A DNA stretch of 64,000 nucleotides. Origin: Pseudoroseomonas cervicalis (lineage in GTDB: Bacteria > Pseudomonadota > Alphaproteobacteria > Acetobacterales > Acetobacteraceae). Positions within the stretch are counted from its first letter, which is position 1, and each line of letters begins with the position of its first letter. Of this stretch, positions 2,037 through 45,656 are shown in pieces. The notes under the pieces are model-generated. The model searched no databases, was not told the DNA's origin, and saw only the letters and a program-made list of their open reading frames with translations. The position numbers and the translations under genes are program-made. The stretch lies in assembly GCF_030818485.1 (NCBI RefSeq), contig NZ_JAUTAJ010000004.1, positions 2,397,001 to 2,461,000 of the forward strand, written 5' to 3'.

Positions 2037-2175
2037 GAGAGGAGCTTCGCCCCTCTCACTCCCACCAAAGGCCTGAGGCCTTTGGAAACCCATCTGTTTG
2101 AATTCTAAAACTGATGGCGGGTGCAGGGGACCCTGTACCCTGCTGGGGGAGTTTGAGGGGGCAAAGCCCCCTCAA
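2037..2175 (+). repeat. Palindromic intergenic repeat family A, copy 1
   Basis: One of three related elements in this window (others at 23918 and 45514). Order of hairpins: GAGAGGAGC with GCCCCTCTC (slightly degenerate here), CCAAAGGCC-TGA-GGCCTTTGG (perfect), a GCAGGGGAC / GTACCCTGC stem with one mismatch, and TTGAGGGGGC-AAA-GCCCCCTCAA (2153-2175, perfect). It sits between two convergent genes and ends 11 bases from the asnB stop. The stems without T tracts suggest a dispersed REP/BIME-like element rather than one terminator. Confidence 0.9.
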
Positions 2176-2186
2176 GCCGGTCGCGC

Positions 2187-3944
2187 TCAGCGCGCCGCCA
2201 GATACTCGAAGGTATCGCCCGCGGGCATCACGCCCTCCACATGCCGGCGGTGCCACAGCGCGTAGAACAGCAGGTGCCAGGCGGCGAAGCCCTCGCGCTT
2301 GCCGCCCGCCGCCTTGAACAGGGCGGCCACGCGGTCCGGCCGGGCGATCTCGGCCACGCCGGGCTGCGCCGCCACCAGCGGCCCCAGCCGCTCGCCCTTG
2401 GCGGCGATCCAGGCGCCGACCGGCACGGTGAAGCCCTGCTTCGGCCGATGCGGCTCGGCCGCCGGCAGATGCCGCGCCAGCCATTCGCGCAGCAGCCATT
2501 TGCCCGCACCGTTGCGCACCTTCAGCGCGTCCGGCAGGCGGAACACCGCCCCCGCCACGGCGCTGTCCAGGAAGGGGGTGCGCCCCTCCACCGCATGCGC
2601 CATCAGGCAGCGGTCCAGCTTCAGCAGCAGGTCATTGGGCAGCCAGTCGGCCACATCCAGCGCCTGGGCGGCCATCAGCCGGCTGCGCCCGGGCAGCGCC
2701 ACGGCGGCCTCGGCGGCGGCGATGCCGTCGCGCCAGCCGGTGGGGGGCGCGCGCAGCACCTCCAGCCGGTCGAAGGCGCCGCGGCTGCGCAGCGCCTTGC
2801 CGCCCAGCCACCAGGGCCGCATGGCGGCGCGGTAGCGGCCATAGCCGCCCAGCAGCTCATCCCCGCCCTCGCCCGAGAGCACCACCTTCACCTCCTGCCG
2901 GGCGCGGCGCGCCAGGAACCAGGTGGGGATGATGGCGTAATCCGCCGCCGGGTCGTCCATGGCGGCGACGATCTCCGGCAGATGCCGCCAGACCTCGGCC
3001 TCGGAGACGGTGATGCTCTCATGCCGGGCGCCGACGGCGCGGGCCAGCGTCGCGGCGCGCTCGCGCTCATCCGCGGCACCCGCCACGTCGAAGCCGGCGG
3101 TGTAGGCGCGCACCGGGCTGTCATTCAGCCGCGCCATCATCGCCAGCACGGCGGCGCTGTCGGTGCCGCCCGACAGGAACAGGCCGTAGGGCACGTCGCT
3201 GCGCTGGTGCAGATCGACGCTGGACTGGAAGGCGGCATCGAACGCCGCCAGCGCCGCCTCCTCGGTGGTCGCCACCGGCCCGCCCTCGGGCAGGGCGGCG
3301 CGGCGGCGGCGCTCCAGCACGCGGCCTTCCGAGATCGCCACCGTCTCGCCCGGCAGCAGGCGGGTGATGCCCTCGAAGATGGTCTCGGCGCCGGTGGTGA
3401 ACTGCATCTGCAGCAGCTCGGCGCGCGATTCGGCGCGGATGCGCGGCGCCACCAGACCGGCGCCGATCAGCGCCTGCGCCTCGGAGGCGAAGGCGATGCC
3501 CTCCGAGGTCTCGGCCAGGTAGAGCGGCTTGATGCCGAAGGGGTCGCGCGTCAGCACCACCTGCCGCGCCGCGCGGTCATGGATGGCCAGCGCATACATG
3601 CCACGCAGCCGGTCGGCGAAGCCCAGCCCGTCGCGCCGGTAGAGATGCAGCGGCGGCTCGCAATCGCTGCCGGTGGCGCAGCCGAGCTGGTTCTCCTCGC
3701 GCAGCTCGCGGTAGTTGTAGACCTCGCCATTGCCGACCAGCGCGGCGGGGCCGGCGAAGAGCGGCTGGTCGCCGGTGGCCAGGTCGATGATCGCCAGCCG
3801 GTTATGCGCCAGCGCCACCTGGCCGGCGACATGATGCCCCGAGCCGTCCGGGCCGCGATGCGCCAGCGCGCCGATCAGCCGCTGCAGCAGCGCCGCGTCG
3901 GGCGTGGCGCCGGGTTTCAGGATCAGGCCGGCAATGCCGCACAT
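2187..3944 (-). CDS. asnB: Asparagine synthetase (glutamine-hydrolysing) type amidotransferase
   Basis: Transfers ammonia from glutamine to an adenylated carboxylate; for true AsnB this makes asparagine. It has 585 residues. The start is fixed by the N-terminal nucleophile: Met is followed at once by Cys2 (MCGIAGLI), and HRGPDG completes the glutaminase signature. The synthetase half has the PP-loop SGGTDS near residue 258 and the GGDELLGGYGRY segment. The gene lies 6 bases downstream of a family 4 glycosyltransferase, which points to a surface-glycan role such as amidation of a uronic acid rather than general asparagine supply. The family call is secure, but the substrate is open. Confidence 0.9.
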   Translation of the reverse strand: MCGIAGLILKPGATPDAALLQRLIGALAHRGPDGSGHHVAGQVALAHNRLAIIDLATGDQPLFAGPAALVGNGEVYNYRELREENQLGCATGSDCEPPLHLYRRDGLGFADRLRGMYALAIHDRAARQVVLTRDPFGIKPLYLAETSEGIAFASEAQALIGAGLVAPRIRAESRAELLQMQFTTGAETIFEGITRLLPGETVAISEGRVLERRRRAALPEGGPVATTEEAALAAFDAAFQSSVDLHQRSDVPYGLFLSGGTDSAAVLAMMARLNDSPVRAYTAGFDVAGAADERERAATLARAVGARHESITVSEAEVWRHLPEIVAAMDDPAADYAIIPTWFLARRARQEVKVVLSGEGGDELLGGYGRYRAAMRPWWLGGKALRSRGAFDRLEVLRAPPTGWRDGIAAAEAAVALPGRSRLMAAQALDVADWLPNDLLLKLDRCLMAHAVEGRTPFLDSAVAGAVFRLPDALKVRNGAGKWLLREWLARHLPAAEPHRPKQGFTVPVGAWIAAKGERLGPLVAAQPGVAEIARPDRVAALFKAAGGKREGFAAWHLLFYALWHRRHVEGVMPAGDTFEYLAAR

Positions 3945-3950
3945 CGGGGT

Positions 3951-5015
3951 TCAGGCCGCTCCGCCCAGGGTTGAAGCACCGGTTGAGGCACTGGCTGCCG
4001 GAGCCACCTGTTGCAGGAAGCCGCGCCAGCGCGCAAGCACCGGCGCCTCGGCGAAGCCGGCCAGATAGGCGGCGCGCCCGGCCTCGGCCAGCGCCGCGCG
4101 CCGCTGCGGCGCCGCCAGCAGCCCGGCGATCGCCTGGCCCAGCGCCTCCGGCGCCTCCTGCGGCACCAGCAGCCCGGTCTCGCCCTCGCGGATCAGCTCG
4201 GAGGGGCCCTGCGCCGCGATGGCGACGACGGGGCGCGCCGCGCTCCAGGCCTCCAGCACGATATTGCCCAGCGGCTCGTGCCGGCTGGAGCAGACGAAGA
4301 CGTCGCAGGCCGCCAGCAGCGCCCCGGCATCCTGCCGCCAGCCGAGGAAATGCACTCGCTCGGCCACACCCAGCTCACGCGCCAGGGCTTCCAGCGTGGC
4401 GCGCTCCGGCCCCTCGCCGGCCAGCGCCAGATGGGCGCCGGGCACATGCGGCAGGGCGCGCAGCAGCGTGTCGAAGCCCTTGTTGCGGTGCAGCCGCCCC
4501 ATCGCCAGCAGGCGCGGCGCCTCGGCGGGCAGCGGCAGCTCGGCCGGCAGCACGCCGCCCATCTCCTCGACGAAATTGGGCAGGTAATGCACCCGCTCCG
4601 CCGGCTGGCCCTGCTCCACCATCCAGCGCACCAGGTCGCGCGTGTTGCCGACCAGATGGTCGCAATGGCGGTAATGCTTCAGGTCGTAATAGCCGCCCAG
4701 CCGCCCGACCAGCGTCCAGCCGCCGCGCGGCGTGAACAGCGTGGCGCGGTTCATCCAGGACACCACCACCTGGGGCTGGAAGCGGCGCAGCGCGGCGGAA
4801 AGGCGCGGCCGCGTCATCCAGTCGAGCCAGGGGCTGCCGAAGCGCAGCTGCAGCGGCGCGAGGCCGCGCACCGCCAGCCGCGCGGCGCGGCCCGGATCGG
4901 CGCGGATGACCGAGAGCACCTCCTCCCCCTCCGCATGCAGGGCGCAGGTCAGGCGCTCATAGAAGCCCTCGGCGCCGCCCATGCGGGCGCCGGCTATCAC
5001 CTGCGCGATCCTCAT
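3951..5015 (-). CDS. Glycosyltransferase family 4
   Basis: 354-residue GT-B glycosyltransferase. The N-terminus MRIAQVIAGARMGGAE is the usual GT4 acceptor-domain start with the GGAE loop. The C-terminal donor domain has LLAMGRLHRNKGFDTLL, then VCSSRHEPLGNIVLEAWSA, the EX7E-like nucleotide-sugar region. It probably transfers a sugar to a lipopolysaccharide or other surface glycan at the inner membrane face. It ends 6 bases before the amidotransferase and starts 70 bases after the heptosyltransferase-like gene, all on the minus strand, so the three probably form one operon. Donor and acceptor cannot be deduced. Confidence 0.88.
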   Translation of the reverse strand: MRIAQVIAGARMGGAEGFYERLTCALHAEGEEVLSVIRADPGRAARLAVRGLAPLQLRFGSPWLDWMTRPRLSAALRRFQPQVVVSWMNRATLFTPRGGWTLVGRLGGYYDLKHYRHCDHLVGNTRDLVRWMVEQGQPAERVHYLPNFVEEMGGVLPAELPLPAEAPRLLAMGRLHRNKGFDTLLRALPHVPGAHLALAGEGPERATLEALARELGVAERVHFLGWRQDAGALLAACDVFVCSSRHEPLGNIVLEAWSAARPVVAIAAQGPSELIREGETGLLVPQEAPEALGQAIAGLLAAPQRRAALAEAGRAAYLAGFAEAPVLARWRGFLQQVAPAASASTGASTLGGAA

Positions 5016-5085
5016 GCGGCATGCCCTTCCCGGCGGGTGCTTCCGGTCAATGCCGGGGCCGATGCGGGGTTGCCGCGCCGGGGGC

Positions 5086-6030
5086 TCACGCCGCCGCCTC
5101 CGCCGGCGTCCCGGCGGCCGGGCTGTCCAGCAGGGCGATGGCGGCCTGCAGCGCATCCTCGACCGGCAGCGCCGTCATCGGCGCCTGCCCCGCCGCCCCC
5201 TGCGCCAGCACGGCGCGGGCGCGCGGGCCGATGGGGGCGTATTCGCTGGCCGGGGTCGGGCCGAACAGGCCGAGCGTCGGCACCCCGGCGGCGGCGGAGA
5301 GATGCATCAGCCCCGAATCATTGCCGATGAACAGCGCGCAGCGGGCGAGCAGCGCCGCCGCCTCCGGCAGTTCCAGCCGGCCCACCAGGTCGATGGCGCC
5401 GGGCAGCGCCGCCAGCACCGGGGCGGCCATCGCGGCCTCGGTCGCGCCGGGGCCGGCCAGCACCACCGGGCGCGCGCCCTCCAGCCGGCCGCCCGGGCCG
5501 GACAGCGCCTGGAACAGGGCGACGAAACGCTCCGCCGGCCAGACCTTGCCGGCCCAGTTGGCGCTGGGGCCCAGGGCGATCAGCGGCGCCCCGCCCTCGG
5601 GCGGCAGCAGCGCGGCGGCGCGGGCGATGTCCTGCGCGCCATACCAGGCGACCGGGCGCGGCGCCGGCTTCAGCCCCAGCACGCCGGCCAGATGCAGCAG
5701 CTTATGCCCGGGGCGGCGGCCGCCGCGCATCACCGCGCGCTGGCGGGTCCAGACCAGCCAGGACAGGGCCGAGCCGCGCAGATCCACCACCAGGTCCCAG
5801 CGGCGGCCCACCACCCGGCTCCACAGCGCCAGCCAGTGCAGCGAATAGCGCCGCTTGGCCAGCACGATGGTCTCCTCCCGATTCGGCATGCGGGCGAAGA
5901 TGCCCTCCGCCACCGGGCCGCAGGCGATGGTGATGCGCGCCCCGGGATGGGCGCGCAGCAGATGGTCGAGCAGGCCGGTGGACAGCACCGCATCCCCGAT
6001 CCGGGTGGCGGTCACGAACAGGATGCGCAT
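5086..6030 (-). CDS. Glycosyltransferase family 9 (heptosyltransferase-like)
   Basis: 314 residues. The start MRILFVTATRIGDAVLSTGLL is the hallmark of ADP-heptose:LPS heptosyltransferases (family 9), with the D of IGDAVLS as the conserved acidic residue. The C-terminal half contains LIALGPSANWAGKVWP and the FIGNDSGLMHLSAAAGVPTLGLFGPT donor-binding motif (split here as GNDSGLMHLSAAAG and GLFGPT). It likely adds heptose or another sugar to the LPS core. It is the first gene of the three-gene minus-strand set and is divergent from ygfZ, with 165 bases between the starts that must hold both promoters. Confidence 0.88.
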   Translation of the reverse strand: MRILFVTATRIGDAVLSTGLLDHLLRAHPGARITIACGPVAEGIFARMPNREETIVLAKRRYSLHWLALWSRVVGRRWDLVVDLRGSALSWLVWTRQRAVMRGGRRPGHKLLHLAGVLGLKPAPRPVAWYGAQDIARAAALLPPEGGAPLIALGPSANWAGKVWPAERFVALFQALSGPGGRLEGARPVVLAGPGATEAAMAAPVLAALPGAIDLVGRLELPEAAALLARCALFIGNDSGLMHLSAAAGVPTLGLFGPTPASEYAPIGPRARAVLAQGAAGQAPMTALPVEDALQAAIALLDSPAAGTPAEAAA

Positions 6031-6195
6031 GGTTGCGGCGCGCTTAGCATGGTTTGGCGTCCCTGTCCGCTGCCGGCGCCCCGCGCGGGCCACGCCTGGC
6101 GAGAAAAGCCGCCCCCCGCCCGCCACCGCCGCGTGTGGCCGCTTCCGCCCCGGCGGCGCCTTGTCCGCGGCCATGCGGCGCCTCATCTTCCGGCC

Positions 6196-7056
6196 ATGCC
6201 CCTTTCTCCCCTCCCCGACCGGGCCGTGGTGGAGGTGACCGGCGAGGACCGCGTCGCCTTCCTGCAGGGCCTCGTCTCCAACGACGTGACGCAGGCCGCG
6301 CCCGGCCGCGCCGTCTGGGCCGCGCTGCTGACGCCGCAGGGCAAGTGGCTGGCCGATTTCTTCATCCTGGCGGGCGCCGACCGGCTGCTGCTCGACACCG
6401 CCGCCGGCCAGGCGGAGGCGCTGGCGCAGCGTCTGTCGCGCTTCCGCCTGCGCTCCCGCGTCGCCATCGCGCGGCGCGAGGATTTGGCCGTGCTGGCCGG
6501 CTGGGGCGAGTCGCTGCCGCCCGAGGGCGTGCTCTGCGCCGCCGATCCGCGCCTGCCGGAGGCCGGCTGGCGCGCCATCCTCAACGCCTCCGCCCTGCCG
6601 CCCGGGGATGGCGACTATGCGCTGCACCGCCTCAGCCTCGGCCTGCCGGATGGCGCGCCGGATCTGGAGCCCGAGAAATCCGTGCTGCTGGAGGCCGGCT
6701 TCGATGAGCTGGACGGCATCTCCTGGAGCAAGGGCTGCTACATGGGCCAGGAGCTGACCGCGCGCACCCGCTATCGCGGCCTGCTGAAGCGCCGGCTGGT
6801 GCCGGTGGCGGTGGCGGGCCCGCTGCCCGCCCCCGGCACGCCCGTGCTGCGCGATGGCGCCACGGTGGGCGAGATGCGCTCCGGCCACCCCACGGGGCTG
6901 GGCCTCGCCCTGCTGCGCCTGCCCATCCGCGAGGGCGAGGCGCTGTCCTGCGGCGAGGCCACCCTGACCCCGCGCCTGCCCGGCTGGATGCGCCTGCCCG
7001 AACCCGCCCCCTCCGCGGCCGAGTCGCCAGTCCCGGCGGGGGGAACCGTTTCTTAA
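6196..7056 (+). CDS. ygfZ: Folate-binding protein YgfZ
   Basis: 286-residue member of the GcvT-like YgfZ/CAF17 family, which helps assemble or repair certain iron-sulfur proteins using tetrahydrofolate. The family signature K-G-C-Y-x-G-Q-E appears as KGCYMGQE near residue 180, followed by LTARTRYRG. The N-terminal segment (EDRVAFLQGLVSNDV) is the GcvT-like fold start. The ATG at 6196 gives the typical N-terminus (LPDRAVVEVTGEDR). The gene is divergent from the heptosyltransferase-like gene and 24 bases upstream of a lysozyme-like gene. Confidence 0.92.
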   Translation: MPLSPLPDRAVVEVTGEDRVAFLQGLVSNDVTQAAPGRAVWAALLTPQGKWLADFFILAGADRLLLDTAAGQAEALAQRLSRFRLRSRVAIARREDLAVLAGWGESLPPEGVLCAADPRLPEAGWRAILNASALPPGDGDYALHRLSLGLPDGAPDLEPEKSVLLEAGFDELDGISWSKGCYMGQELTARTRYRGLLKRRLVPVAVAGPLPAPGTPVLRDGATVGEMRSGHPTGLGLALLRLPIREGEALSCGEATLTPRLPGWMRLPEPAPSAAESPVPAGGTVS

Positions 7057-7080
7057 CCCTGCCGCGTCACCTTGCCGGGC

Positions 7081-7944: not shown

Positions 7945-7964
7945 GGCCGCCAGGTTTTTCTACC

Positions 7965-8066
7965 AGCTGCCGGTCAGGGCCGCGACGGGATTACTGCACT
8001 CACAACCACCGCGCCGGCCCAGCGCCGCGCCCCGCCTCTCAACAGGACGGCGGCAGCCCGAAAAAA
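7965..8066 (+). repeat. Intergenic repeat family C, copy 1a
   Basis: Begins GCTGCCGGTCAGGGCCGCGA and ends with AGGACGGCGGCAGCCCGAAA. The ends are imperfect inverted repeats (GCTGCCG with CGGCAGC). A second direct copy is at 8128-8227 and an inverted copy at 21790-21890. The last 24-bp segment (ACAGGACGGCGGCAGCCCGA with As) is repeated once more in tandem at 8067-8090. Confidence 0.85.
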
Positions 8067-8084
8067 CAGGACGGCGGCAGCCCG

Positions 8085-8124
8085 AAAAAAAGCCCGGGGG
8101 AATGAATTCCCCCGGACCTTTTTT
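8085..8124. terminator. Bidirectional terminator between the lysozyme-like gene and ppdK
   Basis: CCGGGGGAAT (8094-8103) pairs perfectly with ATTCCCCCGG (8106-8115) across a 2-nt loop. TTTTTT (8119-8124) follows on the plus strand. A run of seven A (8085-8091) precedes it, giving a T tract for minus-strand transcripts. It can therefore terminate both the plus-strand lysozyme-like gene and the minus-strand ppdK operon. A near-identical hairpin occurs at 21906-21935. Confidence 0.85.
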
Positions 8125-8127
8125 GTC

Positions 8128-8227
8128 GGCTGCCGGTCAGGGCCGCGACGGGATCGCTCCACTCACAACAGCCGCTCCGGCCCAGTGTCGCGACCCGCCT
8201 CCAAACCGGACGGCGGCAGCCCGAAAG
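8128..8227 (+). repeat. Intergenic repeat family C, copy 1b
   Basis: Direct repeat of 7965-8066 with scattered differences, including the shared GGTCAGGGCCGCGACGGGAT core and the GGACGGCGGCAGCCCGAAA end. It stops three bases before the ppdK stop codon. Two direct copies flanking a bidirectional terminator suggest a composite element. Confidence 0.85.
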
Positions 8228-8229
8228 AA

Positions 8230-10899
<2,670 letters not shown>

Positions 10900-10911
10900 C
10901 TCGGGTTTCCT

Positions 10912-14622: not shown

Positions 14623-14748
14623 GTTCTTCTTTTTCTGAAGAAAAAGAAGCAAAAAGACTTCTTTCAGTTTGGTGTCCCGCATCAGGCCATCAGCGGGACG
14701 CCCACTGACAGAAGTTTTTTGGTTCTTTTTTTCAAAAAAGAACCCTTC
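14621..14748 (+). repeat. A/T-rich palindromic repeat family B, copy 1
   Basis: Unusually A/T-rich for this genome. Hairpins: CTTCTTTTTC-TGAA-GAAAAAGAAG (14626-14649), a central GTCCCGC / GCGGGAC stem around 14675-14700, and GGTTCTTTTTT-TC-AAAAAAGAACC (14721-14744). It fills the whole gap between the convergent NTF2-like gene and the HxlR gene. A second full copy is at 17786-17908 and a partial one at 33286-33331. Confidence 0.92.
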
Positions 14749-14750
14749 TC

Positions 14751-15128: not shown

Positions 15129-15158
15129 GGCGCGCCTCCGGGTCGGTTACCTTGGCCC

Positions 15159-15861: not shown

Positions 15862-16463
15862 TGCCCGTTCTGCACTACATCCACGACCCGCTCTGCGGCT
15901 GGTGCTACGCGGCCTCCCCCCTGGTGGAGGCCGCGGCGGCGGCGGGCATCCCGGTGCGGCTGCATGGCGGCGGGCTGTGGCACAGCCCGACCGCCTTGCC
16001 GCCGGCCAAGCGCGCGATGATCGCGCAGGCGGATGCGCGCATCGCGGCGATGACCGGCCAGCCCTTCGGCGAGGCCTATCTCCAGGGGCTGCTGCAGGAC
16101 CCGGCGACGCGCTTCCACTCCCGCCCCATCATCGCCGCCCTGCTGGCGGTGCCGGAGGCGCAGGCCCTGCCGATGCTGCGCGCCATCCAGCGCGCGCATT
16201 ATGTCGAGGGGCAGGCTGTGATCGAGACGCCGGTGCTGGCGCGGCTGGCCGAGGGCCTGGGCGTGGCGCCGGCGGAATTCCTGCCGGCGCTGGAAGCCGC
16301 GCCGGTGGACCGTCACATCGAGACGACGCGCGGGCTGATGCAGCGCATCGGCGCCGGCGGCTTCCCGAGCTTCCTGGTGGAGCGCGACGGCGTGGCCCGC
16401 CCGCTGAACCACCAGGATTGCTATGGCCAGCCCGCGCTGTTCGTGCAGCGCATCCTGAACTGA
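15861..16463 (+). CDS. DsbA-family thioredoxin-like protein
   Basis: 200 residues with an N-terminal thioredoxin-fold strand and the motif DPLCGWCYAASP, giving an active-site C-x-x-C (CGWC). There is no signal peptide, so it is a cytoplasmic DsbA-like thiol oxidoreductase or glutathione-linked isomerase. A cis-Pro loop appears at GGFPSFLVE. The start codon overlaps the stop of the reductase gene. The pair under HxlR control suggests a response to electrophiles or disulfide stress, which is inference. Confidence 0.87.
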   Translation: MPVLHYIHDPLCGWCYAASPLVEAAAAAGIPVRLHGGGLWHSPTALPPAKRAMIAQADARIAAMTGQPFGEAYLQGLLQDPATRFHSRPIIAALLAVPEAQALPMLRAIQRAHYVEGQAVIETPVLARLAEGLGVAPAEFLPALEAAPVDRHIETTRGLMQRIGAGGFPSFLVERDGVARPLNHQDCYGQPALFVQRILN

Positions 16464-16525
16464 AGGCGGGGTCCGGGGTGGCCCTGCCACCCCGGCGGGG
16501 TCAGGGGCAGAGCCCCTGACTTTTT
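16464..16525 (+). repeat. Palindromic intergenic repeat family D, copy 1
   Basis: Contains GGGGTGGC-CCT-GCCACCCC (16475-16493) and the terminator hairpin at 16500-16520. The inverted copy at 54248-54309 matches almost base for base. It begins directly after the stop codon of the DsbA-like gene. Confidence 0.85.
16500..16525 (+). terminator. Intrinsic terminator after the DsbA-like gene
   Basis: GTCAGGGGC (16500-16508) pairs perfectly with GCCCCTGAC (16512-16520) over a 3-nt loop, and TTTTT (16521-16525) follows. It is the second hairpin of the family D repeat and lies between convergent genes. Confidence 0.85.
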
Positions 16526-16531
16526 CCTGGC

Positions 16532-17761: not shown

Positions 17762-17785
17762 GGGTTTTTCCTGTGTCATTCAAGA

Positions 17786-17908
17786 ATCTTCTTTTTCTGA
17801 AGAAAAAGAAGCAAAAAGACTTTTTCAGTTTGGCGTCCCGCTTCAGGCCATAAGCGGGACGCCAATGAACAAAAGTTTTTTGGTTCTTTTTTTCAAAAAA
17901 GAACCCTT
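17786..17908 (+). repeat. A/T-rich palindromic repeat family B, copy 2
   Basis: Same architecture as 14621-14748: CTTCTTTTTC-TGAA-GAAAAAGAAG (17788-17811), a central GGCGTCCCGCTT / AAGCGGGACGCC stem, and GGTTCTTTTTT-TC-AAAAAAGAACC (17882-17905). Here it lies between two minus-strand genes, after the S49 peptidase stop and before the M29 start. The central stem differs from copy 1 by paired changes that preserve base pairing. Confidence 0.92.
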
Positions 17909-17913
17909 AATTT

Positions 17914-21782: not shown

Positions 21783-21789
21783 CTTTTGT

Positions 21790-21890
21790 CAGGCTGCCGC
21801 TGTCCTGTTCAGAAGCGGGACACGGCGCTGGGCCGGAGTGGCTGCTTTGAGGGTAGCGATCCCGTCCCGGCCCTGACCGGCAGCTGACAG
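21790..21890 (-). repeat. Intergenic repeat family C, copy 2 (inverted)
   Basis: Reverse complement of the elements at 7965 and 8128, sharing CTGCCGGTCAGGGCC, GGGACGGGATCGCT, CTCCGGCCCAGCG and GACAGCGGCAGCC when read on the minus strand. As at 8.1 kb, it lies beside a CCGGGGGAAT-type terminator. Confidence 0.85.
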
Positions 21891-21905
21891 AAACAAGATG
21901 GGGGT

Positions 21906-21935
21906 CCGGGGGAATTCATTCCCCCGGCCTTTTTT
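21906..21935 (+). terminator. Intrinsic terminator after the DUF2076 gene
   Basis: CCGGGGGAAT (21906-21915) pairs perfectly with ATTCCCCCGG (21918-21927) over a 2-nt loop, and TTTTTT (21930-21935) follows. It is almost identical to the terminator at 8094-8124, and both accompany repeat family C. Confidence 0.88.
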
Positions 21936-21966
21936 CATTCAGGCGTCTTTCTTCAAACCCTGCGCC

Positions 21967-23841: not shown

Positions 23842-23917
23842 GGGCAGGGGTCCTCTCGCAGAGGCGAAAAGCTGCGCCCGGCCTGGCGGCCTGTCAAACA
23901 CCGGCGGGGGCGCTCTT

Positions 23918-24053
23918 GAGAGGGGCTTTGCCCCTCTCACTCCCCACCAAAGGCCTGAGGCCTTTGGAAACCCATCAGTTGGGACCCCACTGATGGCGGG
24001 TGCAGGGGACCCTGTCCCCTGCTGGGGTGCTTGAGGGGGCAAAGCCCCCTCAA
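23918..24053 (+). repeat. Palindromic intergenic repeat family A, copy 2
   Basis: The best-preserved copy. Hairpins: GAGAGGGGC-TTT-GCCCCTCTC (23918-23938), CCAAAGGCC-TGA-GGCCTTTGG (23947-23967), CCATCAGT / ACTGATGG flanking a short spacer, GCAGGGGAC-CCT-GTCCCCTGC (24002-24022), and TTGAGGGGGC-AAA-GCCCCCTCAA (24031-24053). The last arm overlaps the stop codon of the LysR gene. Confidence 0.93.
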
Positions 24054-33253: not shown

Positions 33254-33285
33254 GCGGGGCGCCCGCCTCGCCACCAGCGCGCGCC

Positions 33286-33331
33286 AAACGGACAAAAGTT
33301 TTTTGGTTCTTTTTTCCAAAAAAGAACCCTT
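33286..33331 (+). repeat. Repeat family B, partial copy 3
   Basis: Only the right-hand part of the B element is present: CCAAACGGACAAAAG followed by GGTTCTTTTTT-CC-AAAAAAGAACC (33305-33328). The loop changed from TC to CC while all stem pairs remain. It lies in the 202-base gap between ribF and the hydrolase gene. Confidence 0.85.
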
Positions 33332-33455
33332 CCGAGGCCTTTTTCGCTTCTGCCTCTCCCCGCCACGCTCCCGTCTTGCCACCGCCCTGGCGCGGGTGTG
33401 TGCTGCCCTCCACCGCAGTGCCCGGCAGATGGCGCGCGGGGGAGGATGAGACAGG

Positions 33456-34475
33456 ATGCGCGCAAGGATTCTGGCCGCGATGCTGGCCCTGGGGCTCGGC
33501 GGCGGCGCCGCGGCCGAACCGCTGGCGCTGGAGCGCTGGGGCAGCTTCCATGTCGGCGGCCGGAGCGTCGAGGTTACCGGCCAGCCGGTGCGGGAGATGC
33601 TGTTCTCCCCCGGCGGGGTGCCGACGCGGATCGACCCCAACGGCACCTATCTGATGGGCGGCATGTATGCGCAGTACATGATCCCGGCCGCGCCGCGCGG
33701 CCAGGTGCCGCTGCTGCTGTGGCATGGCGGCGGCCTGACCGGGGTGAGCTGGGAGACGACGCCGGATGGCCGCGAGGGCTGGCAGCATTTCTTCCTGCGC
33801 CGCGGCTGGCCCGTCTATGTCTCGGATGCGGTGGAGCGTGGCCGCGCCGGCTGGGGCATGATCCCGGAGCAGACCGGCGGGGTGGCGGTGGTCAACCCGG
33901 TCTCCAACCCGTGGGAGCGTTTCCGCATCGGCCCCGGCCCCGGCAGCTACGCCCGGGGCGAGCTGCTGCCCGGCAGCCAGTTCCCCGCCGACCGGGAGAG
34001 CTATCTGAACTTCATCCGCCAGAACGTGCCGCGCTTCACCACGACGGACGGGCTGACGCTGGAGGCCTATCTGGCGCTGCTCGACCGGGTGGGGCCGAGC
34101 GTGGTGGTGGCGCACAGCCAGGCCGGGCTGTTCGGCTGGCGCGCGGCGCAGGAACGGCCGGACAAGGTGCGCGCCCTGGTGCTGGTGGAGCCCGCCACGG
34201 TGGGCGACCCGGCCAAGCTGGCGGCGCTGAAGGACATCCCGGTGCTGATGGTCTATGGCGACCACATCGCCCAGGATTCGCGCTGGCCGGCGATCCGCGC
34301 CAATGGGCTGCGCTTCGCCGAGGCGGTGCGCCAGGCGGGCGGCAGCGTGGAGGTGGTGGACCTGCCGGAACGCGGCATCACCGGCAACAGCCACATGGTC
34401 ATGATGGACCGCAATTCGGACCAGGTGGCGGCGCTGGTGCAGGACTGGCTGGCGGCGAAGGGGCTCTGGCGCTAG
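33456..34475 (+). CDS. Secreted alpha/beta hydrolase
   Basis: 339 residues with an N-terminal signal peptide (MRARILAAMLALGLGGGAAA, cleavage near residue 20). The mature part has LLLWHGGGLTGVSWE (oxyanion-hole loop) and the nucleophile elbow VVAHSQAGLFGW with Ser near residue 220. GNSHMVMMD supplies the terminal His. These are the features of periplasmic esterase-like alpha/beta hydrolases, also seen in proteins annotated as poly(3-hydroxybutyrate)-depolymerase-like or esterases. The substrate is unknown. It has no obvious operon partner and is followed by a noncoding repeat array. Confidence 0.82.
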   Translation: MRARILAAMLALGLGGGAAAEPLALERWGSFHVGGRSVEVTGQPVREMLFSPGGVPTRIDPNGTYLMGGMYAQYMIPAAPRGQVPLLLWHGGGLTGVSWETTPDGREGWQHFFLRRGWPVYVSDAVERGRAGWGMIPEQTGGVAVVNPVSNPWERFRIGPGPGSYARGELLPGSQFPADRESYLNFIRQNVPRFTTTDGLTLEAYLALLDRVGPSVVVAHSQAGLFGWRAAQERPDKVRALVLVEPATVGDPAKLAALKDIPVLMVYGDHIAQDSRWPAIRANGLRFAEAVRQAGGSVEVVDLPERGITGNSHMVMMDRNSDQVAALVQDWLAAKGLWR

Positions 34476-34483
34476 CGGCGGGC

Positions 34484-34701
34484 CGGCAGCTTGATCGGTG
34501 CCTGGGCCGCGAACGCGGCCCGGCAGCTTGACCGGTGCCTGGGCCGCGAACGTGGCCCGGCGGTTTAACCGGTGCCTGGGCCGCGACCCTGCGGCCCGGC
34601 AGTTTGAGCGCTACCTGGGCCGCGACCCTGCGGCGCGGCGGTTTGACCGGCGCCTGGGCCGCGGCCGCATGGCCAAGCGGCTTGACCCGTGCCCGGACGC
34701 G
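34484..34701 (+). repeat. Tandem array of 37-39 bp units upstream of ileS
   Basis: About 5.7 contiguous units: 34484-34520 (37), 34521-34557 (37), 34558-34596 (39), 34597-34635 (39), 34636-34674 (39), and a degenerate last unit from 34675 to 34701. The consensus opens with CGGCAGCTTGACCGGTGCCT and continues GGGCCGCGAACGCGGCC. The last part of each unit is a hairpin (GGCCGCG-AA-CGCGGCC in unit 1). A 37-bp unit shifts the reading frame, so the array is unlikely to be coding. There are no unique spacers, which rules out CRISPR. Confidence 0.9.
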
Positions 34702-34876
34702 CCGCAAAACCCCGCCATGTCCCGGATGCAGCCTCGGCCGCAGGCATTCCTGCTGGCGGCGCGAATTAGCGGCCCGGTTCTCGACCAGCTCCCCTGGCGA
34801 GGGCCGGGTTGCCCGATGCGCGCCGCCTTCTCCATGCCCTGAAGCCCGCCCATCCTGGCGGCATGTGGACCTCCCG
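34702..34876 (+). other. Leader region before ileS
   Basis: Noncoding sequence between the tandem array and the ileS ATG. I see no clear sigma-70 promoter, T-box or terminator hairpin. A 41-codon ORF (34717-34842) is open here but has no good ribosome binding site and only one isoleucine codon, so I do not call it a leader peptide. Confidence 0.5.
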
Positions 34877-38205: not shown

Positions 38206-38777
38206 GGCAGCTTCCCTTCCGCATCCCGGCCCGCGCCGCGCTCCTGCCGATGGCCTGCACGCTGCTGCTCGCCGGCTGCGGCGGCGACACGGCGCGCACG
38301 CTGGGCTTCACCCGCGACGCGCCGGACGAGTTCAGCGTGGTCACCCGCGCGCCGCTCTCCCTGCCGCCGACGCTCGGCAACCTGCCGGCGCCGCGCCCCG
38401 GCGCGCCGCGCCCGCAGGAGCTGCGCGGCCGCGCCGCCGGCGAGGCGGTGCTGGCCCCCGGCGCCGCCTTCGGCGTGGGCGCCGCCTCCGCCCCCTCGCG
38501 CGGCGAGAGCGCGCTGCTGGCCCAGGCCGGCGGCGGCGCCTCCCCCGACATCCGCTCGCGGGTGGATGAGGAGAGCACGCGGCTGGAGCAGCCCGACCGC
38601 TCCGTGGTCGACCGGCTGATGTTCTGGCGCGAGACCCCGCCGCCGGGCACCGCCCTCGACCCGCAGCGCGAGGCGCAGCGCCTGCGCGAGAATGCCGCCC
38701 TCGGCCGCAGCGTGGAGGATGGCGAGACGCCGATCATCCAGCGCCGCCGCCAGGGCCTGTTCCAGGGGCTGTTCTGA
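38202..38777 (+). CDS. DUF3035 lipoprotein
   Basis: 191 residues. The signal peptide ends in a lipobox (MACTLLLAGC, Cys near residue 26), so the protein is a substrate of the LspA encoded immediately upstream. The following RDAPDEFSVVTRAPLSLPPTL is the conserved core of the DUF3035 family, which sits beside lspA in many alphaproteobacteria. The rest is low complexity with a polar C-terminal helix. It is probably an envelope lipoprotein facing the periplasm; the function is unknown. Confidence 0.88.
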   Translation: MRQLPFRIPARAALLPMACTLLLAGCGGDTARTLGFTRDAPDEFSVVTRAPLSLPPTLGNLPAPRPGAPRPQELRGRAAGEAVLAPGAAFGVGAASAPSRGESALLAQAGGGASPDIRSRVDEESTRLEQPDRSVVDRLMFWRETPPPGTALDPQREAQRLRENAALGRSVEDGETPIIQRRRQGLFQGLF

Positions 38778-39037
38778 GCGCCCTGCCGAGCGGCGCCGCC
38801 CCGCAAGGCGCGGCGGCGCCCCCCTGCCCGGCCGGGGAGGTGGCGGAGGCCCCGCCACCGCACTGTCCCGCCGACGCGCCGCCGGAGGCCGGGCCCGGCC
38901 CGGCACAGGCGCCGGCAGCCGCGCGGGCAGCCGCGCCGGCATTGCTGGCCCCCCTGGCCCCCTCCCCGGCTGACGTCTCCGCCATGGCCGGTTTTTTCCC
39001 TGGCGCTGCCCTGCCCGCCGACCCATGTGAGGACGGC

Positions 39038-40462: not shown

Positions 40463-41748
40463 GCGGCAGCGCCCCCACCCCGCAGGCCGCCGGGACCAGC
40501 GGCTTCTCCCTGCCGATCCAGGTGGTCGAGGGGGGCGGCTTCACCGCCTGGCTGGCCGAGGATCATTCGGTCCCCGTGGTCAGCCTGGCCTGGTCCTGGC
40601 CGGGCGGCGCCGCGCTGGACCCCGCCGGGCAGGAGGGCGCCTCGGCGCTCGCCGCCGCGCTGCTGACCGAGGGCGCCGGCGATCTGGACGCGCTGGCCTT
40701 CGCCGACGCGCTGCGCGACGAGGGCATCGGCCTGGATTTCGGCGCCGACCGCGACAGTTTCAGCGGCAGCCTGCGCGCCCTGGCCCCGGCCCTGCCGGAG
40801 GCGGTGCGGCTGGCGCGGCTGGCGATGACCGCGCCGCGCCTGGCCGAGCCCGATGTGGCGCGGCTGCGGGCGCAGGCCATCGCCCGTGCCCGGCAGGCGC
40901 TGGAAGGGCCGCGCGGCCGCGCCGCCCGCGCCTTCTGGGCCGAGGCCTATCCCGACCACCCGGCCGGCCGCCCCGCCGCCGGCACCGAGGAGAGCCTGGC
41001 CGCGCTGACCGTCGAGCAGCTGCGCGCCGCGCTCGCCCGCCCGCTGCATCGCGGCCCCGGCCTGCTGGTCGCGGCGTCGGGGGCCATCGACGCCGCCGGC
41101 CTCGCCCGGCTGCTGCCCGAGCTGTTCGGCGCCCTGCCCGAGGGCGCGGTGCCGCCAGCGCCGCCCCTGCCGGAATTCCGCCGCTTCGGCACCCAGGTGG
41201 TGCCGGTGGCGGCCTCGCAATCGACCATCCTGTTCGGCCAGCAGGGCATCCCGCTGAACGACCCGGATTGGGAGACGGCGCAGATCGTGCTGCGCATCCT
41301 CTCCGGCGGCGGCTTCACCGCCCGCCTGACCCGCTCGATCCGCGAGGCGCGCGGCCTGACCTATGGCATCTCGGCGGGGCTCGACAGCATCTTCGCGCAG
41401 AGCGTGCTGGTGGGCGGCTTCGCCACCGCCAATGCCCGGGTGGGCGAGGCGCTGGCGCTGCTGCGCGAGGAATGGAAGCGCATGGCCGATGCCGGGCCGG
41501 AGGCGGCCGAGATGGAGGAGGCCGTCGCCTACATGACCGGCAGCCAGCCGCTGCAATTCACCGACAGCCGCCGCATCGCGGCGACGCTGCTGGCGATGCG
41601 GCGCAATGGCCGCCCGCTGGACTGGCTGGAGAAGCGGCCCGCCCGGCTGGCCGCGGTGACGCAGCCGGCGGCGGCGAAACTCGCGGCGCGGCTGCTCGTT
41701 CCCGACCAGCTTTCGATCACTGTCGCAGGGCAGCCCGAAGGTCTCTGA
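40459..41748 (+). CDS. M16 peptidase-like, non-catalytic partner
   Basis: 429 residues of the M16 fold without the zinc motif: at the position of HFLEH it reads GASALAAALL. The conserved R/Y pair region REARGLTYGI is retained, as in non-catalytic beta-like subunits. It overlaps the catalytic gene by four bases (ATGA), which supports a heterodimer. It lacks an evident cleavable signal peptide, so how it reaches the partner (if the partner is exported) is unclear; either the pair is cytoplasmic or its N-terminus is atypical. Confidence 0.88.
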   Translation: MSGSAPTPQAAGTSGFSLPIQVVEGGGFTAWLAEDHSVPVVSLAWSWPGGAALDPAGQEGASALAAALLTEGAGDLDALAFADALRDEGIGLDFGADRDSFSGSLRALAPALPEAVRLARLAMTAPRLAEPDVARLRAQAIARARQALEGPRGRAARAFWAEAYPDHPAGRPAAGTEESLAALTVEQLRAALARPLHRGPGLLVAASGAIDAAGLARLLPELFGALPEGAVPPAPPLPEFRRFGTQVVPVAASQSTILFGQQGIPLNDPDWETAQIVLRILSGGGFTARLTRSIREARGLTYGISAGLDSIFAQSVLVGGFATANARVGEALALLREEWKRMADAGPEAAEMEEAVAYMTGSQPLQFTDSRRIAATLLAMRRNGRPLDWLEKRPARLAAVTQPAAAKLAARLLVPDQLSITVAGQPEGL

Positions 41749-41913
41749 GCCCGGGCGGCGCGCCGCCCGCCGGCCGGGACCCTGGGGCCGGCCGGGGGTC
41801 GCGGCGCCGCCCGGCTGCTGGCCGGGCCGTGATCCGTCCCCGCCGCCGGGGGCCTTGCCGTTTGCGGCAGGGCCTCTAGCCTGCGGCGCACACGCCGTGA
41901 GGGGGATGACGGG

Positions 41914-43575
41914 ATGACCACAGCGCGCGAGACGGCCTGGAGCCGGGTCGAGGAACTGGCGCGCCGGCCGGGGGCGGGGGCGATCCGTGCCCTGTTCGCC
42001 GCCGATCCGCAGCGTTTCGAGCGGTTCCACCGCGAGGCCTGCGGCATCCTGCTCGACCTCTCCAAGACCTCGATCGACGACCAGGCGATGGCCGGGCTGC
42101 TGGAGCTGGCCCAGGCCTGCGACGTGCTGCCGCGGCGCGACGCCATGGCGGCGGGCGAGATCGTCAACACCACCGAGAAGCGCGCCGTGCTGCACATGGC
42201 GCTGCGCGCGCCGCGCGGCGCCGGCTATCGCGCGCGGCTGCCGGAGGGCGGCACCGAGGATGCCTCGGCCTCGGTGGACGAGACGCTGGCGGCGATGAAG
42301 CGCTTCACCCGCGCCATCCATCGCGGCGAGATCCGCGGCGCGACGGGCGAGACCTTCACCGATGTCATCAATATCGGCATCGGCGGCTCCGATCTCGGCC
42401 CCTACATGATCGGCCGGGCGCTGTGGAACGCCCGCTCGCCGATGCGGCCGCTCTATCTGGCCAATGCCGATGCGCACAATTGGGAGGCGATCCGGCCGCG
42501 GCTGAACCCGCACCGCACCCTGGTGCTGATCGCGTCGAAGACCTTCACCACCGCCGAGACCATGGCCAATGCGCGCATCGTGCGCGGCTGGCTGGAGCAG
42601 AATCTGGGCGAGATGGGCGCCCGCCGCCATCTGGTGGCGCTGTCCACCAACCATGAGGCGACGGCCGCCTTCGGCGTGGCGCCGGAGCGCGTCTTTGGCT
42701 TCCATGACTGGGTCGGCGGCCGCTTCTCGCTCTGGTCGGCGATCGGGCTGTCCATCGCGCTGTCCTGCGGCTGGACCGCCTTCTCCAACCTGCTGGCCGG
42801 CGCGCGCGCCATGGACGAGCATTTCCTGACCGCGCCGCCGGAGCGCAACCTGCCGCTGCTGCTGGCGCTGACCACCATCTGGCATGTCAACGGGCTCGGC
42901 CTGCGCAGCCAGGCCATCCTGCCCTATGACCACCGCCTCTCCCGCTTCCCCGCCCATCTCCAGCAGCTGGAGATGGAGAGCCTGGGCAAGAGCGTGACGC
43001 TGGACGGCCACAAGGTGGCGCGCGAGACCGGCCCGGTGATCTTCGGCGAGCCCGGCACCAACGCGCAGCATTCCTTCATGCAGCTGCTGCACCAGGGCAC
43101 CACCCCGGTGCCGGCGGATTTCGTGCTGGTCGCCAATCCCGACCATCCCTTTGCCGAGAATCACCGCCTGCTGCTCTCCAACGGCCTGGCCCAGGCCGAG
43201 GCGCTGCTGCGCGGCCGCTCGACCGAGGAGGTGGAGCAGGAGATGCGCGCCGCCGGCGTGGCCGAGGCGGAGATCCGCCGCCTCCTGCCGCACCGCCTGT
43301 TCCCGGGCGACCGGCCCAGCACCACCCTGCTGCTCGACAAGCTCGACCCCGCCTCGCTCGGCGCGCTGGTGGCGCTGTATGAGCACAAGGTGTTCTGCCT
43401 GGGCGCGCTGTGGGACATCGACGCCTTCGACCAATGGGGCGTCGAGCTGGGCAAGCAGCTGGCCAAGTCGATCCTGCCGGAGCTGGAGCCGGAGGGGCAG
43501 ATCGGCCGCCACGACCCCTCCACCGCCGGCCTCATCACCCGCATCCGCGACCTGCAATACGCCGCCGCCGACTGA
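41914..43575 (+). CDS. pgi: Glucose-6-phosphate isomerase
   Basis: 553 residues converting glucose 6-phosphate to fructose 6-phosphate. Conserved stretches: INIGIGGSDLGPYM (sugar-phosphate loop), SKTFTTAETM, ALSTNHEA, and the PGI signature around GGRFSLWSAIGL. The active-site Glu lies in FGEPGTNAQHSFMQLLHQG. The C-terminal Lys lies in QWGVELGKQLA. The start lies 165 bases after the M16 pair; the gap holds a perfect GGGCGGC/GCCGCCC palindrome near 41754-41769 and may contain the promoter. Confidence 0.97.
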   Translation: MTTARETAWSRVEELARRPGAGAIRALFAADPQRFERFHREACGILLDLSKTSIDDQAMAGLLELAQACDVLPRRDAMAAGEIVNTTEKRAVLHMALRAPRGAGYRARLPEGGTEDASASVDETLAAMKRFTRAIHRGEIRGATGETFTDVINIGIGGSDLGPYMIGRALWNARSPMRPLYLANADAHNWEAIRPRLNPHRTLVLIASKTFTTAETMANARIVRGWLEQNLGEMGARRHLVALSTNHEATAAFGVAPERVFGFHDWVGGRFSLWSAIGLSIALSCGWTAFSNLLAGARAMDEHFLTAPPERNLPLLLALTTIWHVNGLGLRSQAILPYDHRLSRFPAHLQQLEMESLGKSVTLDGHKVARETGPVIFGEPGTNAQHSFMQLLHQGTTPVPADFVLVANPDHPFAENHRLLLSNGLAQAEALLRGRSTEEVEQEMRAAGVAEAEIRRLLPHRLFPGDRPSTTLLLDKLDPASLGALVALYEHKVFCLGALWDIDAFDQWGVELGKQLAKSILPELEPEGQIGRHDPSTAGLITRIRDLQYAAAD

Positions 43576-43633
43576 GGCGCTTGCCGCCCCCCTCCCCTGG
43601 CGAAACCGGGGGGGGCGGCGCTACATCCTGGGC

Positions 43634-45496
43634 ATGGACCGCATCCGCCTGCTTTCCGCCACCACCGCCGACCGCATCGCGGCCGGCGAGGTGGTCGAGC
43701 GCCCCGCCGCCGCGGTGAAGGAGCTGGTGGAGAACGCGCTGGATGCCGGCGCCACCCAGATCGTCGTGGCGCTGGAGGGCGGCGGTGTCGGCCGCATCCT
43801 GGTCGAGGATGACGGCCAGGGCATGAGCCCGGCCGATCTGGCGCTGTGCATCGAGCGCCACGCCACCTCCAAGCTGCCGGAGGAGGCGGCGCTGTTCCGC
43901 ATCGCGACGCTGGGCTTCCGCGGCGAGGCGCTGCCCTCGATCGGCGCGGTCGCGCGGCTGACCCTGACCAGCCGCGTGCCGGGTGGCGAGGCCTTCCGCA
44001 TCGATGTCGAGGGCGGCGCCAAGAGCGAGATCCGCCCCGCCGCCGGCGCGCCCGGCACCCGTGTCGAGGTGCGCGACCTGTTCTATGCCACCCCGGCGCG
44101 GCGCAAATTCCTCAAGACGCCGGCCACCGAATCCGGCCATGCGGTGGAGGCGGTGAAGCGCCTGGCGCTCGCCTGGCCCGAGGTCGGCTTCCGCATGGAG
44201 GTCGAGGGGCGGACGGTGCTGAACCTGGCCGCCGGCGACCGCCGCACCCGGCTGCAGGCGCTGCTCGGCCCGGATTTCGCCCGCGCCGCCGTGCCCGTCT
44301 CCGGCGGGCGGGAGGAGCTGGCCCTGCAGGGCTTCGCTGGCCTGCCGACCCTGACCCGCGCCACGGCGGCGGAGCAGCATCTGGTGGTCAATCGCCGCCC
44401 GGTGCGCGACCAGCTGCTGCGCGCGGCGCTGCGCGTCGCCTATCGCGACCTGATCGCCCCCGGCCGCCACCCGGTCGCCGCCCTGTTCCTGGAGCTGCCG
44501 CCCGAGCTGGTGGATGTGAATGTCCACCCGATGAAGACCGAGCTGCGCTTCCGCGACGCCGCCGCGGTGCGCGGCGCGCTGATCTCGGCGCTGCGCCGGG
44601 CGCTGGCCATCGGCGCCGCCGATTCCCCCACCGCCACGCCAAGGGACGAGAATGAGGAGGAGGGCCCGGCCTGGCCGGTGGCGGGCCGCGGCTGGCCGGG
44701 CCCCGCCGGCCCCATGGCCGGCGAGCCCGCCGGGTCCTGGGCCGCGCCGCCAGGCGACGACCCCGCCCCCTTCCCCGGCTTCGCCGAGACCGCGCCGCCG
44801 CCGGGCGAGCCGCGGATGCATGGCTTCTCCTGGCAGCCCGGCCTGCGCCTGCCCGCCCCCCGCCCGCGCCCCGAACCCCCGCTCCAGGCGCCGCTGCCCT
44901 CGCCGGAGGAGGAAGGTCCGCTCGGCCGCCCGGTGGCGCAGCTGCTGGAGACCTACATCCTGGCCGAGGCGCCCGATGGCGCCCTGGTGCTGGTCGACCA
45001 GCACGCGGCGCATGAGCGGCTGACCCATGAGCAGCTGAAGACCCAGCTGCTGGAGGGCGGGGTGCGCACCCAGCCTTTGCTGATCCCGGCCGTGGTCGAA
45101 CTGCCCGCCACCGACGCCGCCCGCCTGCTGGAAGCGGCGCCGACCCTGGCCCGGCTCGGCCTGGAGATCGAGGATTTCGGCGCGGCGACGCTGCTGGTGC
45201 GCTCGCTGCCCGCCCTGCTCGGCAATCCCGACCCGGCGCCGCTGCTGCGCGACCTCTGCGCGGAACTTGCCGAATGGGAGGAAAGCACGGCGCTGGAACG
45301 CCGGCTGGACGCGGCCATCGCAAGGCTGGCATGCCATGGCTCGATCCGCGCCGGGCGCCGCCTCAACCCGGCCGAGATGAGCGCCCTGCTGCGCCAGATG
45401 GAGGCGACACCGCGCGCCTCCACCTGCTCCCACGGGCGGCCGACCTGGCTGCGCATGGGCAAGGCCGAGCTGGAAAAGCTGTTCGGGCGGCGCTGA
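43634..45496 (+). CDS. mutL: DNA mismatch repair protein MutL
   Basis: 620 residues. The N-terminal GHKL ATPase has ELVENALDAGA, DDGQGM and GFRGEALPSIGAV. A Pro-rich linker (about residues 330-420) leads to the C-terminal dimerisation domain. That domain carries DQHAAHERLTHE, an exact DQHA(x)2E(x)4E endonuclease metal motif, so this MutL should nick DNA itself as in bacteria without MutH. It starts 58 bases after pgi, and repeat A begins 17 bases after its stop. Confidence 0.96.
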   Translation: MDRIRLLSATTADRIAAGEVVERPAAAVKELVENALDAGATQIVVALEGGGVGRILVEDDGQGMSPADLALCIERHATSKLPEEAALFRIATLGFRGEALPSIGAVARLTLTSRVPGGEAFRIDVEGGAKSEIRPAAGAPGTRVEVRDLFYATPARRKFLKTPATESGHAVEAVKRLALAWPEVGFRMEVEGRTVLNLAAGDRRTRLQALLGPDFARAAVPVSGGREELALQGFAGLPTLTRATAAEQHLVVNRRPVRDQLLRAALRVAYRDLIAPGRHPVAALFLELPPELVDVNVHPMKTELRFRDAAAVRGALISALRRALAIGAADSPTATPRDENEEEGPAWPVAGRGWPGPAGPMAGEPAGSWAAPPGDDPAPFPGFAETAPPPGEPRMHGFSWQPGLRLPAPRPRPEPPLQAPLPSPEEEGPLGRPVAQLLETYILAEAPDGALVLVDQHAAHERLTHEQLKTQLLEGGVRTQPLLIPAVVELPATDAARLLEAAPTLARLGLEIEDFGAATLLVRSLPALLGNPDPAPLLRDLCAELAEWEESTALERRLDAAIARLACHGSIRAGRRLNPAEMSALLRQMEATPRASTCSHGRPTWLRMGKAELEKLFGRR

Positions 45497-45513
45497 AGGC
45501 CGGGCGCGGGTTC

Positions 45514-45656
45514 TTGAGAGGGGCTTTGCCCCTCTCAAACTCTCCCCACCAAAGGCCTGAGGCCTTTGGAAACCCATTTGTCGGGACCCAACTGAAGGCG
45601 GGTGCAGGGGACCCTGTCCCCTGCTGGGGGTGTTTGAGGGGGCAAAGCCCCCTCAA
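45514..45656 (+). repeat. Palindromic intergenic repeat family A, copy 3
   Basis: TTGAGAGGGGC-TTT-GCCCCTCTCAA (45514-45538), CCAAAGGCC-TGA-GGCCTTTGG, GCAGGGGAC-CCT-GTCCCCTGC and TTGAGGGGGC-AAA-GCCCCCTCAA (45634-45656). Same orientation as the other two copies. It fills the gap between convergent mutL and pheT, ending at the base before the pheT stop codon. Confidence 0.93.

Follow-up and report, generated by a model that had tools for sequence, protein, structure and literature searches.

Three intergenic copies of an element, here called Family A, lie in the 64,000-nucleotide stretch of Pseudoroseomonas cervicalis DNA analyzed in this work (the window), and an earlier note made from the letters alone described them as a mobile or domesticated REP-like element. 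REPs are usually explained by their RAYT transposase. The locus raises the question of how to understand REP-like repeats whose stems are compensated, whose tag recurs and which sit tightly at stop codons, in a genome where a RAYT search finds nothing. The answer to which we incline, with some reserve, is that Family A is a head-to-head dimer drawn from a large REP/BIME-like population, whose hairpins would stand at stop codons and mark transcript ends from both directions.

Anatomy of Family A and its units

The three copies noticed earlier are homologous, with whole-query identities to copy 2 of 89, 100 and 92% for copies 1, 2 and 3, and together with two single, diverged units they make up the five unit places of the window (Table 1). 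The ordered hairpins with three-nucleotide loops TTT, TGA, CCT and AAA are present as described, except that the first loop of copy 1 reads TTC; this copy carries the mismatch reported in its third hairpin, and another in its first stem (GAGAGGAGC). A fifth stem had been overlooked: stem C, formed in copy 2 by CCATCAGT...ACTGATGG around a variable loop, sits between hairpins B and D. The copies do end at or within 11 nt of minus-strand stop codons, the distance being 11 nt for asnB and 0 nt for pheT, while the lysR stop (24050-24052) lies inside copy 2 and is built by the copy itself. Among the gene names proposed, asparagine synthase and pheT exceed the NCBIfam cut-off, whereas lysR is called LysR-type from many NCBIfam matches that all fall under their cut-offs. 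Copy 2 folds into a closed multi-arm structure on the plus strand (-101.1 kcal/mol, z -7.2) and equally well on the opposite strand (-101.9 kcal/mol, z -7.35); pairing is possible between the terminal hairpin segments A and E as well. Rfam gave no match at gathering score in the whole window, the best sub-threshold match in copy 2 having E 0.025 and 22.2 bits against a gathering score of 38.

Table 1. Family A copies, their parts and single units in the window
Feature	Position	Strand	Context or basis
Composite copy 1 (Y then Z, head to head)	2037..2175	+	between short + ORF (stop 2021) and asnB (-, stop 2187)
Single diverged unit	16460..16520	-	convergent gap 16464-16531
GTTTGACA box, promoter-like	23892..23899	-	upstream of the gene after lysR; slot marker in congeners with or without element
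Composite copy 2	23917..24053	+	between lysR (-) and next - gene (MFS-like, start 23841)
Copy 2 hairpin A (outer hairpin of unit Y, loop TTT)	23917..23939	+	sequence and covariation
Copy 2 hairpin B (inner hairpin of unit Y, loop TGA)	23947..23967	+	sequence and covariation
Copy 2 stem C (two unit tags paired across variable linker)	23972..23996	+	sequence and folding
Copy 2 CTGATGG tag of unit Z	23990..23996	+	
Copy 2 hairpin D (inner hairpin of unit Z, loop CCT)	24002..24022	+	sequence and covariation
Copy 2 hairpin E (outer hairpin of unit Z, loop AAA)	24031..24053	+	sequence and covariation; supplies lysR stop codon
Composite copy 3	45514..45656	+	between mutL (+, stop 45496) and pheT (-, stop 45657)
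Single diverged unit	54248..54306	+	directly behind + gene stop (54246)

Family A consists of two units, Y and Z, joined head to head; the halves are alike, and stem C is the pairing of their two tails. Read from the outside in, unit Y comprises TTGAGAGGGGC-TTT-stem, CTCCCC, CCAAAGGCC-TGA-stem and AAACCCATCAG, and unit Z, on the other strand, TTGAGGGGGC-TTT-stem, ACTCCCCC, GCAGGGGAC-AGG-stem and ACCCGCC[AT]TCAG. In both, an outer hairpin is followed by a C-rich spacer, then by an inner hairpin and finally by a tag that stays unpaired and reads CTGA[AT]GG outward. Single Z units and one single Y unit also stand alone. Two perfect stems of at least six pairs occur in 110 of 118 own-genome units, and these 110 contain 65 different outer and 29 different inner hairpin strings, while the tail ACCC(C)GCC[AT]TCAG recurs; CC[AT]TC.G is found in 80 of the 110 while the stems differ. 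The tail belongs to the element. In its exact form the tag is intact in 60 of 116 units overall, with [AT]TCAG preserved in 17 of 36 units in composites, 23 of 37 single units with the tag turned towards a nearby stop and 20 of 43 others.

Changes in the stems are compensated, a feature that the earlier note had proposed to look for. The 28 Y units, taken from this genome and its relatives, have standard pairs in 93.1% of pair cells and two-sided change in 11 of 19 pairs, with 40 cells showing it against a shuffled mean of 9.1; the corresponding values for Z units (n=26) are 95.7%, 8 of 19 pairs, and 20 cells against 3.2. Both measures drop for Y and Z when the partner columns are slid by 1-3 positions. 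The count of further pair types is less telling, being matched by 96 (Y) and 17 (Z) of 500 shuffles. Departures from standard pairing among 2142 pair cells of 116 units comprise 10 G-U and 11 A-C, and because these are about equal, DNA-level palindrome upkeep (quasi-palindrome correction, gene conversion) may be a source of the covariation. On the transcribed strand of tandem loci the ratio of G-U to A-C departures is 7 to 2, too few to decide, and folding energies show no difference between the sense and antisense strands (p 0.42). The missing G-U excess suits the view that these repeats are neutral, with template-switch repair and gene conversion keeping the palindromes perfect and with gene ends as harmless insertion spots.

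Copy number, placement and stop codons

BLAST of copy 2 against the genome returned 42 matches, the best other copies having E 1e-52 to 1e-43. Covariance models were built for unit Y and unit Z, the genome was searched with each, and the best 150 candidates per model (of 2797 and 5265) were scored, yielding at least 99 and at least 111 matches at E up to 0.1. After merging, these correspond to at least 122 units at no fewer than 104 places (E up to 0.1), of which the weakest (24-28 bits) may be false, and 118 units at 100 places were retrieved; the merged list omits most weaker opposite-strand or other-model matches at the same place, a few weak matches and one weak separate site, C4:19113-19177. 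The REP-like population suggested by three copies is thus found genome-wide. Inverted pairs account for at least 18 of the 100 loci (16 Y/Z and 2 Y/Y), and since further partner units at L149, L150, L159 and L168 stand outside this count, composites are undercounted. Along contig C4, no unit among the merged matches falls between 740 and 1350 kb, over ~600 kb, and the region 2.0-3.6 Mb is dense. At L168 (C4:3245326-3245473), a further unit (1422-1499) lies within the 3' end of a called plus-strand gene, whose C-terminal tail may be translated element.

Genes were called by a custom codon-usage script, and the 2 of 100 loci inside called genes were left out of the placement counts. The other 98 lie in 45 convergent, 52 tandem and 1 divergent gaps, compared with 27, 106 and 41 among 174 reference gaps of at least 64 nt (from the window and 335 kb of the relative G010), giving a depletion in divergent promoter gaps (Fisher, p 4e-8) and a convergent enrichment (p 1.4e-7). 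An element end is found within 15 nt of a stop at 85 of 98 loci, where random placement in non-divergent gaps would give 14%; 8 of these 85 overlap a called gene by 11-80 nt and are possible miscalls, leaving 77 of 98 without them. Median distances in tandem gaps are 6 nt to the upstream stop and 56.5 nt to the downstream start, and both stops are at most 15 nt away in 30 of the 45 convergent loci. Location at gene 3' ends, seen by the earlier reader in three copies, therefore extends to the population. Their shared orientation does not: counted composites are split 8 Y+/Z- to 8 Z+/Y-, so that an orientation bias is rejected, and no orientation rule appears in the single units, of which 27 are outer-first and 20 inner-first in tandem gaps.

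Convergent enrichment and closeness to stops, along with terminator-like hairpins in the same slot of relatives (below), point to a two-way transcript-end role. According to the favored reading, the tagged end would be joined at or beside a stop codon with the gene left working, so that very stable hairpins come to lie a few nucleotides from the stop on one or both transcripts. These hairpins could then act as a two-way block at transcript ends, setting the point where trimming by 3' exonucleases halts after termination of the Rho-dependent or U-poor kind, and might also insulate the convergent or downstream gene. The role of transcript 3'-end stabilizer proposed earlier is plausible. Bidirectional transcription terminators copied around the genome, stopping RNA polymerase from both sides, would likewise be enriched in convergent gaps, and we regard them as quite possible, if short of probable. 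Hairpins with T-runs occupy the same slots in some congeners, and T-runs end some units of this genome, for example at 16460-16531, where the tag TGA of the unit is the stop of a plus-strand DsbA-like gene and the outer hairpin is followed by TTTTT. However, most units have no U-tract: at least 5 T in 8 nt are present at 13 of 110 transcript ends, and at 3 of 40 ends scored for Family A proper, so the hairpin with U-tract of ordinary intrinsic termination is not the general case, although a U-poor type is described elsewhere (PMC8269248).

Stable hairpins at most 15 nt from a stop might also stall ribosomes and lower output, an effect reported for REPs of E. coli. Such translational damping would agree with the proximity at 85 of 98 loci, and in E. 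coli 446 of 4072 predicted REPs are reported at most 15 nt from a stop, with 260 of 496 in an earlier study cited there (PMC12306157). Elements are also found behind housekeeping genes such as pheT, which argues against damping, and we rate it as rather improbable.

The tag itself can be the stop codon. Where a tag end faces a gene (53 cases), C.GA[AT]GG is matched by 36, and at 18 of these 36 the TGA of the gene is exactly that of the tag; at the other strict-tag ends the stop lies 4-14 nt before the tag TGA (8) or at least 31 nt away (10), and none of the 36 has a stop further inside the unit. Among the 17 non-strict ends, CTGACGG coincides with the stop at L090, L095, L135 and L155, bringing coincidence to 22 of 53 in all. 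A stop stands directly before the tag or a tag variant at 6 of 53 ends (L075, L102, L129, L136, L139 and L171), the junction at L136 reading CTGA-CTGA. Outer ends are diffuse, 71 of 89 lying between -4 and +15 of the stop. Eight of the 18 coincident genes end in Asn (AAC-TGA), compared with 6 of 313 background genes, an excess indicating that the element probably supplies the last codon too in those eight. Stops in a CTGA context are common in general, at 147 of 312 genes.

Two coincident genes can be followed through the genus. In 17 of 17 congeners a dGTPase-like protein has a similar C-terminus (RLRGL*), and a dehydrogenase-like protein has a C-terminus of equal length in 16 of 16, element present or absent; by eye, only the own genome (G000) and G010 carry the element at these sites. 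These conserved C-termini indicate that the stop position is old. The dehydrogenase site likely read CTGA before the element, to judge from a CTGA context in 8 of 14 others, G006 among them. For the dGTPase, CTGA is seen in 3 of 15 others, and the nearest, G006 and G009, have TAG. The exact dGTPase match is found in G000 only, the stop of G010 lying just before the tag (CTGA-CCGAAGG), and the G010 dehydrogenase stop is TAA in the tag position; both G010 cases argue against a fixed tag-stop rule.

Mobilization and slot history in relatives

Mobilization by a genome-encoded Y1 tyrosine transposase, with the units as non-autonomous transposons (RAYT-mobilized REPINs), would account for three traits known from GTAG REPs (PMC3733652): inverted dimers of BIME type, a tag at the foot and the provision of stop codons. 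The earlier note had placed such an enzyme elsewhere in the genome, but its profile, PF01797, has no match in the own genome (95% complete) and, among 33 other genomes of the family, 16 congeners included, only a 36-position fragment in G006, while 5 of 14 control genomes match, E. coli and Caulobacter included. Moreover, the tag is neither GTAG nor GTGG, and all 15 comparable own loci are occupied in G010 too, in stretches chosen where copies were known. RAYT mobilization is largely refuted for the present day, and we consider this explanation very unlikely. For the Y2 (IS91-type) transposase PF04986, no match was obtained in 17 genus genomes; this is a weaker negative, as the controls gave 0 of 14. 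A transposase between neighboring inverted units was also considered and rejected, the genes between seven close pairs resembling, as judged from their sequences, ordinary genes of the host. Neither PLSDB nor INPHARED contained a plasmid or phage carrier at E 1e-5.

Counting the own genome, 26 of 98 genomes gave matches to copy 2; all 26 belong to one family, and none of 40 genomes from other families of the class gave a match. In a pattern scan, the matches listed came from Roseomonas/Pseudoroseomonas, Gluconacetobacter, Asaia, metagenome bins and one Methylobacterium. The latter (L217, Methylobacterium symbioticum) is a single exact match to the Y-unit core, the only one outside Acetobacteraceae among the matches listed, and is possibly due to transfer or chance.

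PheT of G010 is 97% identical to the own PheT. The 15 own loci with both flanks in the compared G010 stretches are those found occupied above (by eye; one partly masked), a biased figure because the stretches, a 335-kb tract and three others, were picked where copies were known, 10 of the 15 coming from the tract. One candidate G010-only element, of 7 sites tried, proved to be shared with the own genome. Between the two genomes, a Z spacer of ~14 nt was gained or lost at L126, L127, L147 and L170, the Y half is missing at L118 in the own genome and at L145 in G010, linkers were replaced, and both inner-hairpin arms switch together between two common types at L123, L145 and L169. These differences fit conversion between copies plus deletion, without showing fresh transposition, and present copies would evolve mainly in this way and not through active transposition. 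In the G010 orthologue of copy 2 (L198:5446-5625), the Y spacer contains an additional small hairpin, CTGCGCGGC...GCCGCGCAG, at the place of ACTCC in the own copy.

The same slots hold different hairpins in different species. Behind lysR, the GTTTGACA box is common to 10 of 15 orthologues; 7 of these 10 are without a double-hairpin unit by eye (5-106 nt gap), and 3 are occupied, by Family A in G000 and G010 and by another subtype in G006. The subtype at one site thus differs between species, and over longer times sites are gained or lost. Behind pheT, a hairpin is seen by eye in 17 of 17 congeners and is of at least four kinds: Family A in 3, a different double-hairpin element of the same layout in 5 (degraded in G015), GGGGGAATTC-type palindromes with T-runs in 4, and terminator-like or simple hairpins in 5, those of G011 and G012 being terminator-like by eye. 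Behind asnB, Family A is present in G000 and G010 and a hairpin with a T-run in G016, and four congeners have 7-22 nt between convergent stops. A base-exact, clean empty site was not found in a close relative, and inspection of the lysR slot by eye showed no clear target-site duplication of the kind expected of a MITE. Neutral repeats would also produce the swaps of subtype and linker at orthologous sites. However, harmlessness alone poorly explains the exact tag-stop coincidence (18 of 36), and stop distances are far tighter than random placement in the same gap kinds, making neutrality a doubtful account.

Other repeats share the intergenic space of the window. One is A/T-rich, with T-runs around GTGTCCCGC...GCGGGACGCC, and lies in convergent and tandem gaps (14623-14750, 17762-17913 and partly 33254-33479); by eye, an element like it occupies the dGTPase slot in G006 and, in G016, the slot of the DsbA-like gene. 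Another, at 7945-8229 and 21783-21966, is a GGGGGAATTCATTCCCCCGG-type hairpin (either strand) followed by TTTTTT, and related hairpins occupy the pheT slot in four congeners by eye. Imperfect tandem copies of a GC-rich unit of ~40 nt (CGGCAGCTTGACCGGTGCCTGGGCCGCGAACG-like) are found in a tandem gap at 34476-34864.

Comparison with known systems

Family A units are REP/BIME-like by architecture and placement and stand outside the GTAG/RAYT and CGTC groups by tag and enzyme. Inverted pairs as composites, the mark of REP/BIME in the broad sense, occur at the 18 or more loci given above, and the ~100 or more extragenic palindromic copies typical of GTAG REPs are present, but the GTAG/GTGG tag and PF01797 are not. 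Counts over both flank windows of 118 units are 4 for GTAG and 15 for GTGG, not as the recurring tail, and 16 for CGTC, outside it. With the GTAG REP/BIME (REPIN) repeats that accompany RAYT in gammaproteobacteria, Family A shares short palindromes with a conserved unpaired tag at one foot, high copy number, occurrence as singles or inverted pairs, convergent and tandem gaps and frequent stop provision (PMC3733652, PMC2817692). Unlike them, it has the tag CTGA[AT]GG, two hairpins per unit instead of one, and a genome in which no Y1 transposase was found. The CGTC REPs of alphaproteobacteria are also tagged palindromes in tandem and convergent gaps (PMC3733652), but Family A units have no CGTC tag, and CGTC repeats are reported as missing in Acetobacteraceae (PMC3733652). 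GTAG and CGTC REPs are described as behaving likewise, the GTAG end giving the stop codon (Di Nocera et al. 2013, PMC3733652).

No published description of this family was found, as judged on titles and the opening lines of abstracts. Lichenicola cladoniae is another member of the Acetobacteraceae. A survey from 2025 predicts many hairpins in this species, 1,369 according to its text and 6,569 according to its table, and its passages on the species give no tag (PMC12306157). Bidirectional or I-shaped terminators, U-poor forms that occur in GC-rich genomes, resemble Family A as stable hairpins at transcript ends without a U-tract; unlike Family A, they are not presented as a tagged dispersed repeat family in the sections of the source on this type (PMC8269248).

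With the tag-equals-stop cases and the swapping of hairpin families within a slot, two old questions become testable, namely how REPs reach gene ends and whether a particular sequence is needed there or any hairpin. Rhizobial intergenic mosaic elements (RIME) are alphaproteobacterial and contain two large palindromes, and in this description they resemble Family A. A CTGA tag that rebuilt C-TGA stops would parallel GTAG rebuilding TAG. Tentatively, and as a possibility that falls somewhat short of an even chance, Family A may represent a third tagged REP superfamily beside GTAG and CGTC, with two-hairpin units, a CTGA tag placed on or rebuilding C-TGA stops and non-Y1 spread, in which several unrelated hairpin families compete for, and replace each other in, the same gene-end slots.
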